In this document: one piece after another, positions 5,031 to 24,228 of the stretch
How the letters are laid out: every line of letters starts with the position of its first letter
Numbering within the stretch: position 1 is the stretch's first letter
Origin: Candidatus Limosilactobacillus merdigallinarum
GTDB lineage: Bacteria; Bacillota; Bacilli; Lactobacillales; Lactobacillaceae
NCBI GenBank assembly: GCA_019114515.1
Contig: DXFH01000030.1
Coordinates: 1-45,533 of the forward strand
Direction of reading: 5' to 3'
DNA: 45,533 bases
The notes under the pieces: model-generated
What the model was told of the DNA's origin: nothing
What the model saw: only the letters and a program-made list of their open reading frames with translations
The model's database searches: none
Translations under genes and position numbers: made by a program

Positions 5031-6719
5031 CTACATTTCATCAGGTGCCTTAACACCTAACAGTGCCAAGGAAGATTTAAGGATTTCACTAACCGCACGT
5101 ACTAGTGCTAAGCGTGAGTCGCGTTCGTCATCCACAACCAAAATCCGGTTGTGGGCGTAATATTGGTTGAAATCTTTTGCCAAAGCCAGCGCATATTTAC
5201 CAATCAGGGAAGGATCGTATTCCTTGGCAGCCCGTTCAATTACTTCGCCGTATTGCCCCAATCGTTTAATAATTCCCCAGGCCTCGTCGCCTTCCAGGTG
5301 GATATCAATATTCGTCAAATCTGATTGACCGGCCTTACGCAAAATACTTTCTGCACGAGCATGGGCATACTGAACATACGGACCAGTTTCTCCTTCAAAC
5401 TTCACCACGTCGGCTAGCTTGAAGTCAATAGAGTTAGTCCGTTCATTCTTCAAGTCATGGAAAATCACGGCACCTACACCGACTTGCTGAGCAACCACGT
5501 CCGCATTCTTTAGCGTGGGGTTCTTTTCAGCGATCTGTTGACGAGCCAACTTAATGGAATCATTCAATACGTCCTCAAGTTGGACAATATTTCCCTTACG
5601 CGTGGACATCTTTTTACCATTTAAGCTCATTAAACCAAACGGGATGTAGTGAATTTGTTTCGACCACGTGAAGCCCATTTCTGCCAAAACCGCTCTCAGT
5701 TGATCAAAGTGGTTACGCTGTTCTGCACCAACCACGTACAGGGCCTGGGCGAAACCATACATCCGCTTACGGAACAGAGCAGCGGCAAGGTCACGCGTCA
5801 TGTACAAAGATGAGCCGTCTGACTTAGTAATCAAAGCTGGGTTCAGGTTGTACTTGGTCAGGTCAACAATCTTTGCCCCACGACTCTCTTGTAACAAACC
5901 TTTGTCTGCTAACAGCTGGTCGATTTCAGGCATCTTATCGTTATAGAAAGCCTCACCATTGTATGAATCGAAGTGGATGTCCAGCATCTGATAAATCTTC
6001 ATAAACCGAGACAATGATGCTGCCCGGAACCACTTCCACAAACGACGAGCTTCGGGATCGCCGTCTTCCAGCTTCTTAAACCATTTACGCCCTGCATCCG
6101 AATATTCAGGGTGTTCGTCTGCTTCAGTATTAATCCGCACGTAATACTTTTGCAGGGTATTAATCGGGTCCTTTTTAACGGCCTCTTCGTCGCCCCACAT
6201 TTCATAAGCAGCCATCAGCTTACCAAATTGGGTACCCCAATCGCCTAAGTGATTAATGCGGATTGGATTGTAGCCAACTTTTGCCAGGATGTTGGCAATG
6301 GCATTACCGATAACGGTTGAACGCAAGTGACCCATCCCCATTGGCTTGGCTATGTTTGGCGATGACAGGTCGATCGCTACATTGGCCTGGTGACCAATAT
6401 TTTGTGAACCATAGTTTTGCGGATCGTGCAAAATGGTTTGCAAAAGATTAACCGCGACTGCCTGCTTATCCAGGTAAAAGTTAATGTACGGTCCAGCAAC
6501 GACAACTTTTTCAAAACCATCTTGGTCAATTTGGGCAACTAAATCCTTTGCAATTAACTGTGGTGCCTTGTGCAAAGTCTTAGCTAAGAAAAAAGTAGGA
6601 AATGCGTAGTCCCCATTTTTTTCGTCTTTAGGGCGTTCAATTTTGCCCAAAATGTCTACCATACTTAAATCAGGTAGTGCTTTTGCTAGTGTCTGCGCCA
6701 CTTGTTGACGTTCATCCAT
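5031..6719 (-). CDS. argS: Arginyl-tRNA synthetase
   Basis: A 562-residue class I synthetase that charges tRNA-Arg in the cytoplasm. Visible are the N-terminal Add1 domain, the HIGH-type motif in [16 protein letters not shown], a KMSKS-type motif [10 protein letters not shown], and the C-terminal anticodon-binding DALR region ending [10 protein letters not shown]. Length is normal for the family. AGGAGG lies seven bases before the ATG. The leader upstream is a T-box with an arginine specifier, so expression should rise when uncharged tRNA-Arg accumulates. Confidence 0.97.
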
Positions 6720-7921: not shown

Positions 7922-8806
7922 CTAAACTAACACAGTACTAGTAGTCTTCACCGTCAAGCCATTATCTTTTAACCAGTTGGCAACGGTCAAGAGCAGACAA
8001 ATATTGCGTAATTGCTTTTCATCTGGATAATCAGCCAAAGCTAATTTAAAGTGCTGCCGTGGGGTGGCAACTTGCAAACATGCAGGTTGTTGCCCCTCTT
8101 TTTTTATTGTCAGCGTTACAAACTGACTGCTTTCAATCACCTTTACTCCTTTCTTCTTGACAAAATTAGCAATGTTTTTATGGAATTCTCCCTTAATTTC
8201 GGGGCCGACAATGACTGCCTTTGTTCCTCTCTTCACCACTCCGGCTTTGGCCCACGCAATTTGTCTGATTGTAGTTCCCAATTTACGCCAGTGATCCATA
8301 CAGCAACTAGTCACGATCACTAAGTCGGGGATACTAATTGCATTACTTATATCACCAATGCCACCCATCCTAGCCGACAAAATTAACCAATCAACGTTTT
8401 TTGTTGCAAAATAATTAATTGCAATCAAAAATGTCCATTCTTCTAAAGTTAATGAGCTTTCAGCCATATCAAGCGGTAAATGACAATATATTTGCCAATA
8501 ATTACGCACATAGTCTGCTTGATTAATCGCTTGCCCATTAATTTGGATTTGCCTGCACGGGTCTAAAGATTCATCACGATGAAAGCAAGCAATTTTTAAC
8601 TTACTCTGACCCATGAGGGGTAACAACGCAGTGATCAAATATTGTTTGCCATGGGTACCAACGACGTGAATGATCCGGAAATTCTGATCAGGATGATTTA
8701 AATTAAATAGCACTTGGCGAACACGACCTACCCGATCACAATTGGTATTAATACATGAATTATTTTTTAAAGAGTGCACAAGCTCTTTATAGTTATCTAC
8801 TATCAT
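7922..8806 (-). CDS. Degenerate FolC-like (Mur ligase superfamily) protein
   Basis: A 294-residue protein that aligns by eye with the first two-thirds of folylpolyglutamate synthase. IHVVGTHGKQYL stands where FolC has HVTGTNGKGS; LTLEEWTFLIAINYF, VDWLILSARMGGIGD, CMDHWRKLG and AWAKAGVVKRG match successive FolC blocks. The P-loop GKGS is GKQY, the catalytic Glu of the EVGxGG motif is Ser, and the whole C-terminal ligase domain (about 130 residues) is missing, yet the frame is open. Activity as FolC is therefore unlikely. The ATG at 8806 is preceded by GGTGAG; an upstream GTG is the alternative. Confidence 0.72.
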   Translation of the reverse strand: MIVDNYKELVHSLKNNSCINTNCDRVGRVRQVLFNLNHPDQNFRIIHVVGTHGKQYLITALLPLMGQSKLKIACFHRDESLDPCRQIQINGQAINQADYVRNYWQIYCHLPLDMAESSLTLEEWTFLIAINYFATKNVDWLILSARMGGIGDISNAISIPDLVIVTSCCMDHWRKLGTTIRQIAWAKAGVVKRGTKAVIVGPEIKGEFHKNIANFVKKKGVKVIESSQFVTLTIKKEGQQPACLQVATPRQHFKLALADYPDEKQLRNICLLLTVANWLKDNGLTVKTTSTVLV

Positions 8807-8893
8807 CTTTCTCACCACATTTGGCTAAAATCATTTCCAGTATTAACATACGCAGTCATACCGAAAAAATGCGAAAAAAGTCTAAATGGCAAT

Positions 8894-9131: not shown

Positions 9132-9204
9132 GCGTCCTTAGTGTAACTGGATAGCACATGAGATTTCGGTCCTCATACTCGGGGTTCGAACCTCCGGGGA
9201 CGCA
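9132..9204 (+). tRNA. tRNA-Arg(TCG)
   Basis: A 73-nt tRNA with acceptor GCGTCCT/GGGACGC, D-arm TTAGTGTAACTGGATAGCAC and T-arm GGGTTCGAACC. Anticodon stem TGAGA/CCTCA with loop TTTCGGT gives anticodon TCG. Pair 31-39 is A-C, a mismatch. The identity rests on the purine at 37 and resemblance of the D-arm to other tRNA-Arg; CCA is not encoded. It is the only plus-strand tRNA here. Confidence 0.85.
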
Positions 9205-9299: not shown

Positions 9300-9366
9300 A
9301 TTGTCTGAAATTTGCTAAAATTCGAAAGCTGACACACAACGGGCACACAAAACAAATTTCACAAAC
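9300..9366. other. Non-coding stretch beside tRNA-Arg
   Basis: Between the tRNA-Arg terminator and the hairpin at 9369 there is no ORF with a start and ribosome binding site. An open plus frame in 9318-9399 has no start. I see no copy of the tRNA-Arg 3' end here, so there is no direct evidence of an integrated element. Confidence 0.4.
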
Positions 9367-9368
9367 AA

Positions 9369-9397
9369 AAAAGCCGCCTCTGGGCGAGACGACTTTT
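9369..9397 (-). terminator. Terminator of the cre-controlled small transcript
   Basis: On the minus strand AAGTCGTCTC pairs with GAGGCGGCTT (two G-T type pairs) around a GCCCA loop, followed by T6. It closes a transcript that would start near 9630. Confidence 0.75.
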
Positions 9398-9536
9398 ACT
9401 AAGGGAAGGACTAATATTTACTTTGCGAGAAAGCTCTTTTTTCTAACTTAACTCATATCGATTTATTAAATTCTTCCGCAAAGTAATTTCTAAACTTAGT
9501 GCACACCGGTAACTACAATCTAAAAAAACAATCTTT

Positions 9537-9608
9537 CTAGTTATACTTATGCTGCTTCTGGCCTACTAATTCTTCAACCCCTAAGTTAATGTAGATTTCT
9601 TGTTGCAT
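9537..9608 (-). CDS. Candidate 23-residue peptide in a CcpA-type controlled transcript
   Basis: ATG at 9608 opens a 23-codon frame beginning MQQEIYINLGVEEL and ending at TAG (9537-9539). GGAAGGAAAGAG ends a few bases before the ATG, and a promoter with a cre site lies 20-50 bases upstream. The peptide has a short hydrophobic/acidic first half and a basic, polar end with no signal sequence. After it come about 140 non-coding bases with an inverted repeat (ACTTTGCG near 9476-9483 and CGCAAAGT near 9421-9428 in minus-strand sense) and a terminator. It could be a small protein, a leader, or the coding part of a dual-function sRNA. Confidence 0.5.
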   Translation of the reverse strand: MQQEIYINLGVEELVGQKQHKYN

Positions 9609-9623
9609 CTACTCTTTCCTTCC

Positions 9624-9660
9624 ACACTTTTAATATATCACTAAATGTAAGCGGTTGCAA
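9624..9660 (-). promoter_or_regulatory. Sigma-A promoter overlapped by a cre (CcpA) site
   Basis: Minus strand: TTGCAA, 17 bases, TATATT. The -35 box lies inside TTGCAACCGCTTACA (9646-9660), which fits the Gram-positive cre consensus WTGNAANCGNWNNCA at every fixed position. A cre over the -35 predicts repression by CcpA in rapid sugar growth. It drives the small transcript at 9369-9640, as the protease gene ends at 9675 on the same strand. Confidence 0.72.
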
Positions 9661-9674
9661 TAATTATTTTTAAC

Positions 9675-10352
9675 TTAATGAATTAGGGCTATTAAAGCAA
9701 AGAAATTATTCAGTGCGTGCAACAGGATCGTGTTGGTTAACCGCCCCGTGCGCCGATAAATATAGGCAAACACGAAGCCCATGTAAAAGTAAATTAAGTA
9801 TGAAATCGGCGTTGTACTAGAATGAGCCAGCGTAAACATTAATCCTGATAAGCAGATTGGCAACCAATATGCATCTTCTTTAAAGAAGATATTCATCAAG
9901 ATGCCGCGAAAAATTAATTCCTCAGCAATCGGGCTTAAGACCACCGCCGCCAATGACATTAATAACAATGCCTGATGGCTGCTACCCATGATTTGCTTAA
10001 TAGCATCATTATTGGCCGTGCTGGACTGATGATAGATTGCCATATTTAAGCGTGCGAGAAAGTTTTCACCTAGGATGACAAATAACCAACCAATTACTGG
10101 CCAACCCACATACATAATGGGCGTTTGGGGTTGAACAGAGAAATGGCGATAACGACGAAAAAGCCAGGCAGCCCAGGCAATGATGAGGCCAAACACACAC
10201 AAATAGATTGTCGTACCTATTAGGTCAGTGACACTTTCAGCACGATAATGAGGTAACAACATCAAAATAACTGGTGGCACTTGGATTACGAGCATCAGTA
10301 AAGCAATTAATAAGATCCTAATTAATAGCGGTGGTCGGGTCGTTTGTGTCAT
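9675..10352 (-). CDS. CPBP-family intramembrane metalloprotease (CAAX/Abi type)
   Basis: A 225-residue polytopic membrane protein. The CPBP motifs are present: EELIFRG with E144, E145 and R149, then FTLAHSS with H177, and an Asn-rich third motif ALNNFFALI near the C-terminus. In lactic acid bacteria such proteins are linked to bacteriocin self-immunity or envelope functions, but no bacteriocin gene is nearby. It starts 11 bases after the LacI-type gene with GAGGAG upstream of the ATG, so the two are probably co-transcribed. Substrate unknown. Confidence 0.85.
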   Translation of the reverse strand: MTQTTRPPLLIRILLIALLMLVIQVPPVILMLLPHYRAESVTDLIGTTIYLCVFGLIIAWAAWLFRRYRHFSVQPQTPIMYVGWPVIGWLFVILGENFLARLNMAIYHQSSTANNDAIKQIMGSSHQALLLMSLAAVVLSPIAEELIFRGILMNIFFKEDAYWLPICLSGLMFTLAHSSTTPISYLIYFYMGFVFAYIYRRTGRLTNTILLHALNNFFALIALIH

Positions 10353-10362
10353 TCAATCTCCT

Positions 10363-11373
10363 CTATTTCTTCAAACCAGTGCTTTCCCTCTTAATTAATT
10401 TAACTGGAAACTTGATCAGCTGCCGGTCAATGTCTGGCTTCTCCAGGCGGTTAACCAATAGGTGCGCACTTTCTCTACCAATTTCCGCAACTGGTTGGTC
10501 AATGGTCGTTAACTTTGGATTGACATATTGATCTAAGTCAATGTCATCATAACCAATGATAGACAAGTCATCTGGCACCTTTAATCCGCGCTCTTCCAAG
10601 CCACGATAAAGACCAATCGCCAACAGATCATCTGCACAAAAGACAGCTGAAACTCCACTATCTAAAATTGATTTCGTAGCCTGATAACCTGCCTCCATGC
10701 TGAAATTTGCATTAATCTCAACCAAATTGTTTTCTGGTAAACCGGCGTCTTTAATTGCGGTCTTAAAGCCCCGTAGCCGTTCACAAACATTCACGGTGGA
10801 GTCCTTTGGCAAAAGCATAGCCAATTTCTGGTGTCCTAGCTGGGTTAAGTGCTGCCCAGCTAAATAGCCGCCATGGTAGTCATCTACTTCAATTCGGTCG
10901 GCCAAGTTGGCAATCTGGTTCTGGTCAAAGAGTAAGTATGGCACCTGTAACGGCTTAACCAGCTTATCAATTGCTTCAGCAGTAATAGTGGCACTAGCAA
11001 TAATCAAGCCGTCTACCGAATGTTCTAAGAGTTTGCCTAAGTAGTAGGTTTCCAGATTAGCATCATGATTAGCACTGAATACTATTGGCATGTAGGTGGC
11101 GTCACGACTATAATCCTGAACTCCTTTGACAAAGCTGCTGAAAAATGGGTTCCCTAGATCAGGGATCAGTACGCCTAGCATCTTAGATGAGTGCAAAATC
11201 AAATTACGTGCATTAAAGTCAGGAACATAGTGAAGTTTTTCCTTAACCGCTAACACTTTATTGCGGGTTTTTTCGCTAAATCGGCCGCCCTTGTTATTAA
11301 GGATCTGAGAAACGGTCGTGACCGATACGCCAGCTTCATTCGCCACTTGTCTAATTGTTACTTTCTTTGCCAT
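10363..11373 (-). CDS. LacI/GalR-family transcriptional regulator
   Basis: A 336-residue repressor with a classic N-terminal helix-turn-helix (TIRQVANEAGVSVTTVSQIL) and hinge, followed by a periplasmic-binding-protein-like sensor domain (LGVLIPDLGNPFFSSFVKGV; ADGLI-type VDGLIIASA; SIIGYDDIDL). It resembles ribose/sugar regulators, but no sugar transporter or catabolic gene lies beside it, so its ligand cannot be named. The ATG at 11373 has AGGAG seven bases upstream; a TTG two codons earlier lacks spacing. It sits in an apparent operon between the 199-residue protein and the membrane protease, and a cre-type site lies 0.7 kb downstream. Confidence 0.92.
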   Translation of the reverse strand: MAKKVTIRQVANEAGVSVTTVSQILNNKGGRFSEKTRNKVLAVKEKLHYVPDFNARNLILHSSKMLGVLIPDLGNPFFSSFVKGVQDYSRDATYMPIVFSANHDANLETYYLGKLLEHSVDGLIIASATITAEAIDKLVKPLQVPYLLFDQNQIANLADRIEVDDYHGGYLAGQHLTQLGHQKLAMLLPKDSTVNVCERLRGFKTAIKDAGLPENNLVEINANFSMEAGYQATKSILDSGVSAVFCADDLLAIGLYRGLEERGLKVPDDLSIIGYDDIDLDQYVNPKLTTIDQPVAEIGRESAHLLVNRLEKPDIDRQLIKFPVKLIKRESTGLKK

Positions 11374-11388
11374 CCTCAATCTCCTGTG

Positions 11389-23989: not shown

Positions 23990-24228
23990 ATCAAAAAAAG
24001 TCCTGTAGATGTTTAACATCTACAGGACGAAAAATATCCGCGGTACCACCCGTAATTCTACTAAAAGTAGCTCTTAGAAGCTTTAACGCGGCCAACGCTA
24101 TTGCTTACTCGGATTCAGCAATAGTCGATTTATGGGCCAGTTCACTACTGCTTGCCCTGCATTTTCAGCACCATGCAGTCTCTGAATGACTAACAGCAGC
24201 TACTATTCCCTTCGTGATCAGATATTAC
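23990..24228 (-). promoter_or_regulatory. T-box riboswitch of leuS (Leu, CUG specifier)
   Basis: The minus strand carries the T-box core GGGTGGTACCGCGG (24037-24050) followed by terminator GTCCTGTAGATG pairing with CATCTACAGGAC and T7 (ending about 23994). In stem I the specifier loop reads GTGAA-CTG-GCC, with CTG at 24138-24140; the opposite side has AATAGTAGC. The CUG reading matches leucine and the anticodon of tRNA-Leu(CAG) at 8934-9017. Confidence 0.93.

Follow-up and report, generated by a model that had tools for sequence, protein, structure and literature searches.

Sugar-controlled RNAs have been described in several bacteria. SR1 of Bacillus subtilis, which goes together with the peptide SR1P, is a sugar-controlled small RNA, RsaI of Staphylococcus aureus is a CcpA-repressed ncRNA, and ArgX of Lactococcus is reportedly a catabolite-linked RNA of lactic acid bacteria (LAB). 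According to a study on 6S RNA, the 6S genes of LAB often have a cre site over the -35 box, a promoter cre being found in about one third of the LAB species, and ccpA mutation raises the 6S RNA level of L. lactis 3-fold (PMC8414754).

The locus considered here lies in a 45,533-nt stretch of DNA from Candidatus Limosilactobacillus merdigallinarum, hereafter called the window. An initial annotation of the locus had proposed a short transcript encoding a small protein or acting as a dual-function RNA, comparable to SR1. Our best reading is that the locus would represent a new family of structured ncRNA, stand-alone and catabolite-controlled, carried by two related genera of lactobacilli. With a probability of roughly 0.75, we propose a stand-alone structured ncRNA gene of about 260 nt that is controlled by CcpA through the cre site and acts in trans through its junction core, the small ORF being a by-product. 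The features of the locus are collected in Table 1.

Table 1. Predicted elements of the RNA gene and of its upstream neighbours (window positions).
Feature	Position	Strand	Basis or remark
Predicted ncRNA, about 260 nt	9363..9625	-	Ends predicted from the -10 box (5') and the terminator (3'); fold; homologues
Promoter TTGCAA-N17-TATATT, TG preceding the -10 box	9632..9660	-	Identical layout in homologues
cre TGCAACCGCTTACA over the -35 box	9646..9659	-	At most one mismatch in any of the 47 distinct regions upstream of intact copies
Shine-Dalgarno-like GGAAGGAAAGAG	from 9623 downwards	-	
P1, 5' strand GGAAGGA	9617..9623	-	Pairs with 9404-9410; GGAAAGA/UCUUUCC in six loci of L043-L051
P2 hairpin GUAGAU...AUCUAC	9591..9612	-	Carries the ORF start; varies between clades
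23-codon ORF MQQEIYINLGVEELVGQKQHKYN, judged incidental	9537..9608	-	Homologue comparison
P3, 5' strand AACUUAG	9581..9587	-	Pairs with 9493-9499; permutation test
P4 hairpin, GGUU/GGCC stem; loop GAA (9573-9575) and AGUA (9564-9567)	9560..9579	-	
Junction P4-P5 AGAAGCAGCAUAAG	9546..9559	-	Near-invariant; homologue alignment
P5 hairpin, UAACUA (9538-9543) with UAGUUA (9510-9515)	9510..9543	-	Covariation
Junction P5-P3 CCGGUGUGC	9501..9509	-	Near-invariant; homologue alignment
P3, 3' strand CUAAGUU	9493..9499	-	Permutation test
P6 arm UUACUUUGC/GCAAAGUAA, inner GGAAG/CUUUC	9418..9486	-	Covariation
P1, 3' strand UCCUUCC	9404..9410	-	Pairs with 9617-9623
Intrinsic terminator, 12 pairs	9369..9397	-	
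CPBP/Rce1-like membrane protease gene, upstream neighbour	9675..10352	-	PF02517
RbsR, LacI-family ribose repressor, two genes upstream of the RNA	10363..11379	-	NF047341, 440.1 bits, cut-off 382

Promoter, cre site and candidate regulators

The promoter, the Shine-Dalgarno-like sequence, the 23-codon ORF, the ACTTTGC/GCAAAGT pairing and the terminator of the initial annotation were all recovered where it had placed them, on the minus strand. The cre site, which it had described as a perfect consensus overlapping the promoter, has no mismatch to TGNAANCGNNNNCA and covers five of the six letters of the -35 box. In the window alone these elements carry little weight: the cre pattern gives four matches (two of them being one palindromic site) for 1.79 expected, a number without significance since 11 of 100 shuffles reach it, and promoter-like sites near cre are close to the background of the window DNA (9 against 7.7 expected). 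The locus stands far above chance because it is conserved in relatives.

Intact copies gave 47 distinct upstream regions (counted as sequences, not as genomes), and in every one the cre site is found at the same place on the -35 box, with a perfect match in 38 and one mismatch in 9, and its distance to the GGAA of P1 is 36-37 nt. The two promoter boxes are 17 nt apart in each of the 46 regions scored together. The 47th, L051, whose -10 box is off the search expression, was scored separately and has a perfect cre at the same place. A decayed copy, L028, stands outside this set and has no cre, its best candidate showing three mismatches at another place. These comparisons bear out, as far as DNA sequence can, the proposal of a stand-alone unit of about 260 nt with a cre at its promoter.

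Membership of the CcpA regulon is indicated by the consensus cre at the promoter together with a ccpA gene in the genome of the window (G000 C14), which scores 474.9 bits for a cut-off of 442.35. The RNA gene is probably CcpA-repressed, with RbsR as the rival regulator. CcpA bound to the cre over the -35 box would block the promoter as long as a preferred sugar is present, and its release once this sugar is gone would allow the RNA to be made. In the 6S study, a cre over the -35 box of LAB 6S genes is likewise read as repression (PMC8414754). It is rather unlikely that RbsR recognises the cre-like site, either in place of CcpA or alongside it, in which case the RNA would be ribose-responsive. 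The gene order rbsR-CPBP-RNA in the window fits this reading, as does the fact that both regulators are LacI-type, RbsR reaching 198.9 bits on the CcpA model, but the site fits the cre consensus, and the three second-genus copies tested have other genes before the RNA and yet keep the site (with one mismatch in L149).

Distribution and gene neighbourhood

When the 321-nt stretch was used as a blastn query, 20 of 56 genomes matched, its own included, all from one genus, and a distant homologue as query matched 38 of 50 genomes of Limosilactobacillus. The covariance model R1, 203 positions long, retrieved one copy each from 40 of 50 Limosilactobacillus genomes, the copy of G024 being partial near a contig end and that of G028 decayed. 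In the draw from the family, which spanned 40 genera, R1 matched 27 of 397 genomes and two genera. The second of these is represented by seven carrier genomes with one copy each, a count of carriers only and without a denominator, one of them taken as Paucilactobacillus hokkaidonensis (LOOC260T, earlier Lactobacillus hokkaidonensis). The draw from the order gave 3 of 295 genomes and 2 of 74 genera. A model of the core (R2) retrieves the same two genera, finds one place only in the window and, in the draw of 398 genomes from the class, matches the window's own genome only. Since searches over more than 40 genomes were run with stricter Infernal filters, by which weak matches are lost, absence elsewhere holds at this filtered sensitivity only.

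A pattern scan that named its sources pointed to L. oris, pontis, vaginalis, mucosae, secaliphilus, frumenti, coleohominis and others. It returned 58 stretches, 28 of which carry the core by R2 (three of these belonged to the building set of R2) and are titled Limosilactobacillus, Lactobacillus or Lactobacillaceae; the other 30, with no R2 match at E 0.01, were taken as chance. L. mucosae DSM 13345 and L. pontis DSM 8475 are among the carriers. Viral contigs yielded no stretch with the exact P6-P1 pattern, and a mobile origin was rejected, since blastn against phages (50,697 records) and plasmids (72,556 records) matched nothing.

No R1 match was obtained in 10 of the 50 Limosilactobacillus genomes, and a CPBP relative is kept in 8 of these 10. 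In G018 (L164) there is no RNA gene, and the CPBP stop codon lies immediately next to the start codon of a gene of the YbjQ-like type, as if the RNA gene had been cleanly lost from between them. The copy of G028 (L028, around 1400-1700) has kept its neighbours and lost the cre, the promoter and part of P5; on R2 it scores 34.1 bits, as does the L. fastidiosus record L133. Judging from these genomes, the RNA is dispensable in some species, because 10 of 50 lack a match, G018 looks like a loss and the G028 copy has decayed without its cre.

Within Limosilactobacillus the RNA lies mostly downstream of a CPBP-type gene (assigned by Pfam in the window and L044 and by eye in the rest, L014 looking different), and it is followed by tRNA-Leu in the window and by a YbjQ-like gene or other ORFs elsewhere. 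In the second genus it stands behind an alpha-acetolactate decarboxylase gene (L149 80-811, L152 168-905) or behind the gene of a PLD protein (L154). The upstream genes differ between the two genera, and the downstream genes differ within Limosilactobacillus. Because promoter, RNA and terminator are constant while the neighbours change, we read the RNA as a stand-alone gene. On this account, the comparison of homologues supports a stand-alone gene as well as the conservation of its fold and of its promoter with the cre.

A leader or riboswitch, in which the terminator would switch a downstream gene, is an improbable explanation of these arrangements. An aptamer-like junction followed by a terminator would suit it, and in several species a YbjQ-like gene (assigned by Pfam in L044 only) lies on the same strand, about 240-330 nt past the core start. 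Against it, what follows the RNA changes between loci: tRNA-Leu in the window, an ORF on the reverse strand in L149 and L154, and various genes in other copies. It was rejected on the ground that there is no constant downstream gene among the loci read (37 of 38, mostly by eye, with L158 outside the set).

Three other features of the window may be recorded. A tRNA-Arg(tcg) gene (9132-9204, plus strand) stands alone between the terminator of the RNA and tRNA-Leu(cag), near argS (5031-6719, minus strand). A FolC-like ORF of 298 aa (7922-8818, minus strand) covers 2-250 of a 400-position model and may be short or broken. A T-box leader is found at 24020-24224 on the minus strand, with 99.7 bits, over the cut-off.

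Conserved fold and the small ORF

The RNA of the window folds better than its shuffles (z -2.79, 0 of 200 as good), and its unconstrained MFE structure includes P1, P2, P3, P4, P6 and the terminator. From covariation and conservation, the RNA is predicted to form a body closed by P1, with a P2 hairpin that varies, a junction of P3, P4 and P5, the P6 arm and the terminator. P1, P2, this three-way junction, and the overlap of the ORF with P2, P3, P4 and the conserved junction had been missed in the initial annotation, and its ACTTTGC/GCAAAGT pairing falls within the P6 arms (9478-9486 and 9418-9426).

P1 closes the RNA body, and its GGAAGGA/UCCUUCC becomes GGAAAGA/UCUUUCC in one group of homologues. 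At the position of P2, many homologues have other hairpins, often GAGG..CCUC-like when read by eye. The joining strands, AGAAGCARCRUAAG and CCRGSGUGC, are almost invariant across the homologues. P3 links the strand before P4 to the strand after GUGCRC by about 4 to 12 pairs whose sequence is almost free. RNAalifold on a MAFFT alignment did not show it, because its strands are out of register in the alignment; it was spotted by eye and then tested by permutation on 42 distinct strand pairs from 47 rows (L028 outside), with a statistic that ignores relatedness. Cognate partners average -11.08 kcal/mol, against -5.90 for non-cognate ones, a result equalled by none of 20,000 permutations, and three of the 42 cognate partners (L005, L006, L007) rank 19th or worse.

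When P4, P5 and the GCA/UGC pairing were scored jointly, 97.5% of 408 cells were paired, against 25-41% in slid controls, six pairs were changed on both sides (reached by 2 of 500 shuffles) and no shuffle of the 500 attained the covariation score; the count of pair types, which 50 of 500 shuffles attain, gives no support. In separate tests, with L028 again outside the set, 92 of 96 cells are paired in P5, the shuffle maximum being 89, and P4 alone, with 23 of 27 cells, stays within its shuffle maximum of 24. Compensatory changes are found in P1, P3, P5 and P6, and in P4 jointly with P5, not alone; that of P6 is a GC to UA change in L150. In L154 and L155 of the second genus the letters of P6 are gone and a hairpin of other sequence is there instead, whose stability does not exceed that of shuffled sequences (equalled by 52 and 17 of 200). 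Since these letters are lost there, we take the core to be P1 and the three-way junction. The GAA of P4 opposite AGUA looks like a bulged-G (loop E) motif and would adopt the corresponding three-dimensional fold.

The ORF overlaps this structure, and the proposal of the initial annotation, a small-protein mRNA or dual-function RNA, is very unlikely to hold. An ORF with a good Shine-Dalgarno-like sequence is indeed present in the window, L002, L003, L005 and L006, but these are 5 of the 40 distinct homologous sequences surveyed (several second-genus copies being outside the set), the L002 version ends after 16 codons at an early stop, and in L004, taken as L. coleohominis 101-4-CHN, ATA replaces the ATG. 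Six aligned copies have 6, 8 and 6 variable columns at codon positions 1-3, of 23 each, and so vary about equally, without coding bias; the pairwise codon differences, which are not independent, amount to 96 nonsynonymous and 21 synonymous. P1 would in addition cover the Shine-Dalgarno-like sequence. The small-protein reading was rejected on this rarity among homologues and this lack of coding bias.

Some other homologues have unrelated short ORFs with no likeness at the start, the longest being 37 codons from a TTG (L155). The frame in which the window ORF crosses the junction (QKQRKS) recurs in L040, L041 and L155 because the RNA junction itself is conserved, and the likeness of the ORF among close relatives arises because P2, P3, P4 and the junction supply its letters. 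We therefore judge the 23-codon ORF to be an incidental by-product of the structured RNA sequence. Conservation in relatives, which the initial annotation had named as a check on its proposal, thus separates its two subjects: the peptide is not conserved and the RNA structure is conserved well. A neat small ORF in a single genome can arise as a by-product of RNA structure.

Mode of action and known RNA families

We propose that the RNA would act as RNA, in trans, through its junction core. Antisense pairing is the commonest mode of catabolite-controlled sRNAs in Firmicutes, and a possible, if tentative, alternative is a trans-acting antisense sRNA that would pair with mRNA via open segments (the P6 loop, the linkers, and the P1 3' strand if P1 opens), its structure serving mainly for stability. 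The CU-rich 3' strand of P1, UCCUUCC, resembles an anti-Shine-Dalgarno sequence, in agreement with such pairing. However, the best-conserved unpaired letters are junctional and purine-rich, and P1 covaries between its two forms, which speaks for P1 pairing with itself. Moreover, the RNA is no more complementary to 37 ORF starts of the window (one genome, starts as given by the ORF lister) than shuffles are, the best value being -16.4 kcal/mol for a mean shuffle best of -18.7 kcal/mol. Just as tentatively, the near-invariant junction core with its GAA/AGUA element could bind a dedicated protein or a compound of central metabolism, the RNA being a stand-alone sensor or sponge of pentose-fermenting lactobacilli and belonging to a new class under catabolite control. 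We infer that the most likely role of the junction core is to bind a partner, more probably a protein than a metabolite, at about even odds with antisense pairing.

No family of Rfam 15 reaches its gathering cut-off on the RNA in the material scanned (the window, 14 of the then 21 loci, and 10 sources of which 9 were new). Three families were considered and rejected, their weak matches on the 3' part being below cut-off and outside the conserved junction core: RsaH (RF01821; 19.4 and 24.8 bits, cut-off 50), ncr1015 (RF02449; 29.6 and 34.7 bits, cut-off 60), whose alignment is carried by A/U-rich stretches and the terminator, and SpF03 (RF02426; 20.0 bits, cut-off 50). Among the top-listed open papers on catabolite-linked RNAs of LAB, mainly on 6S and ArgX, we recognised no description of this RNA; a catalogue of structured RNAs of the human microbiome may contain it unnamed.

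That the RNA is a divergent 6S RNA is extremely unlikely. LAB 6S genes often also have a cre over the -35 box (PMC8414754), and RF00013 has no match in G000-G003 and G005, but the RNA carriers G004, G006 and G007 have RF00013 matches over cut-off at separate loci, and the fold of the RNA is branched, not one long bubble hairpin. Identity with 6S was rejected on these separate loci, and the RNA itself does not reach the RF00013 cut-off. Across the genomes scanned, RF00013 is found in G004 and G006-G009 and absent from G000-G003 and G005, an absence that incomplete assemblies may explain.

Taken together, these data lead us to prefer a stand-alone structured ncRNA probably under CcpA control. 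The genera that carry it include probiotic and starter species, and because the sugar-response site at the promoter is kept in two genera, regulation, partner and phenotype are directly testable in harmless strains. The likeness to SR1/SR1P drawn by the initial annotation survives in concept only: the conserved peptide is missing here, the ORF being present in 5 of 40 homologues, and no Rfam family reaches its cut-off on the RNA. RsaI is alike in concept, as a CcpA-repressed ncRNA, and gave no match in the Rfam scans, where its model is possibly not included. With the 6S RNA of LAB, our RNA shares a stand-alone ncRNA gene and a cre at the promoter and differs in fold and sequence. The RNA would thus form a family separate from 6S and ArgX, with a strongly conserved junction core.
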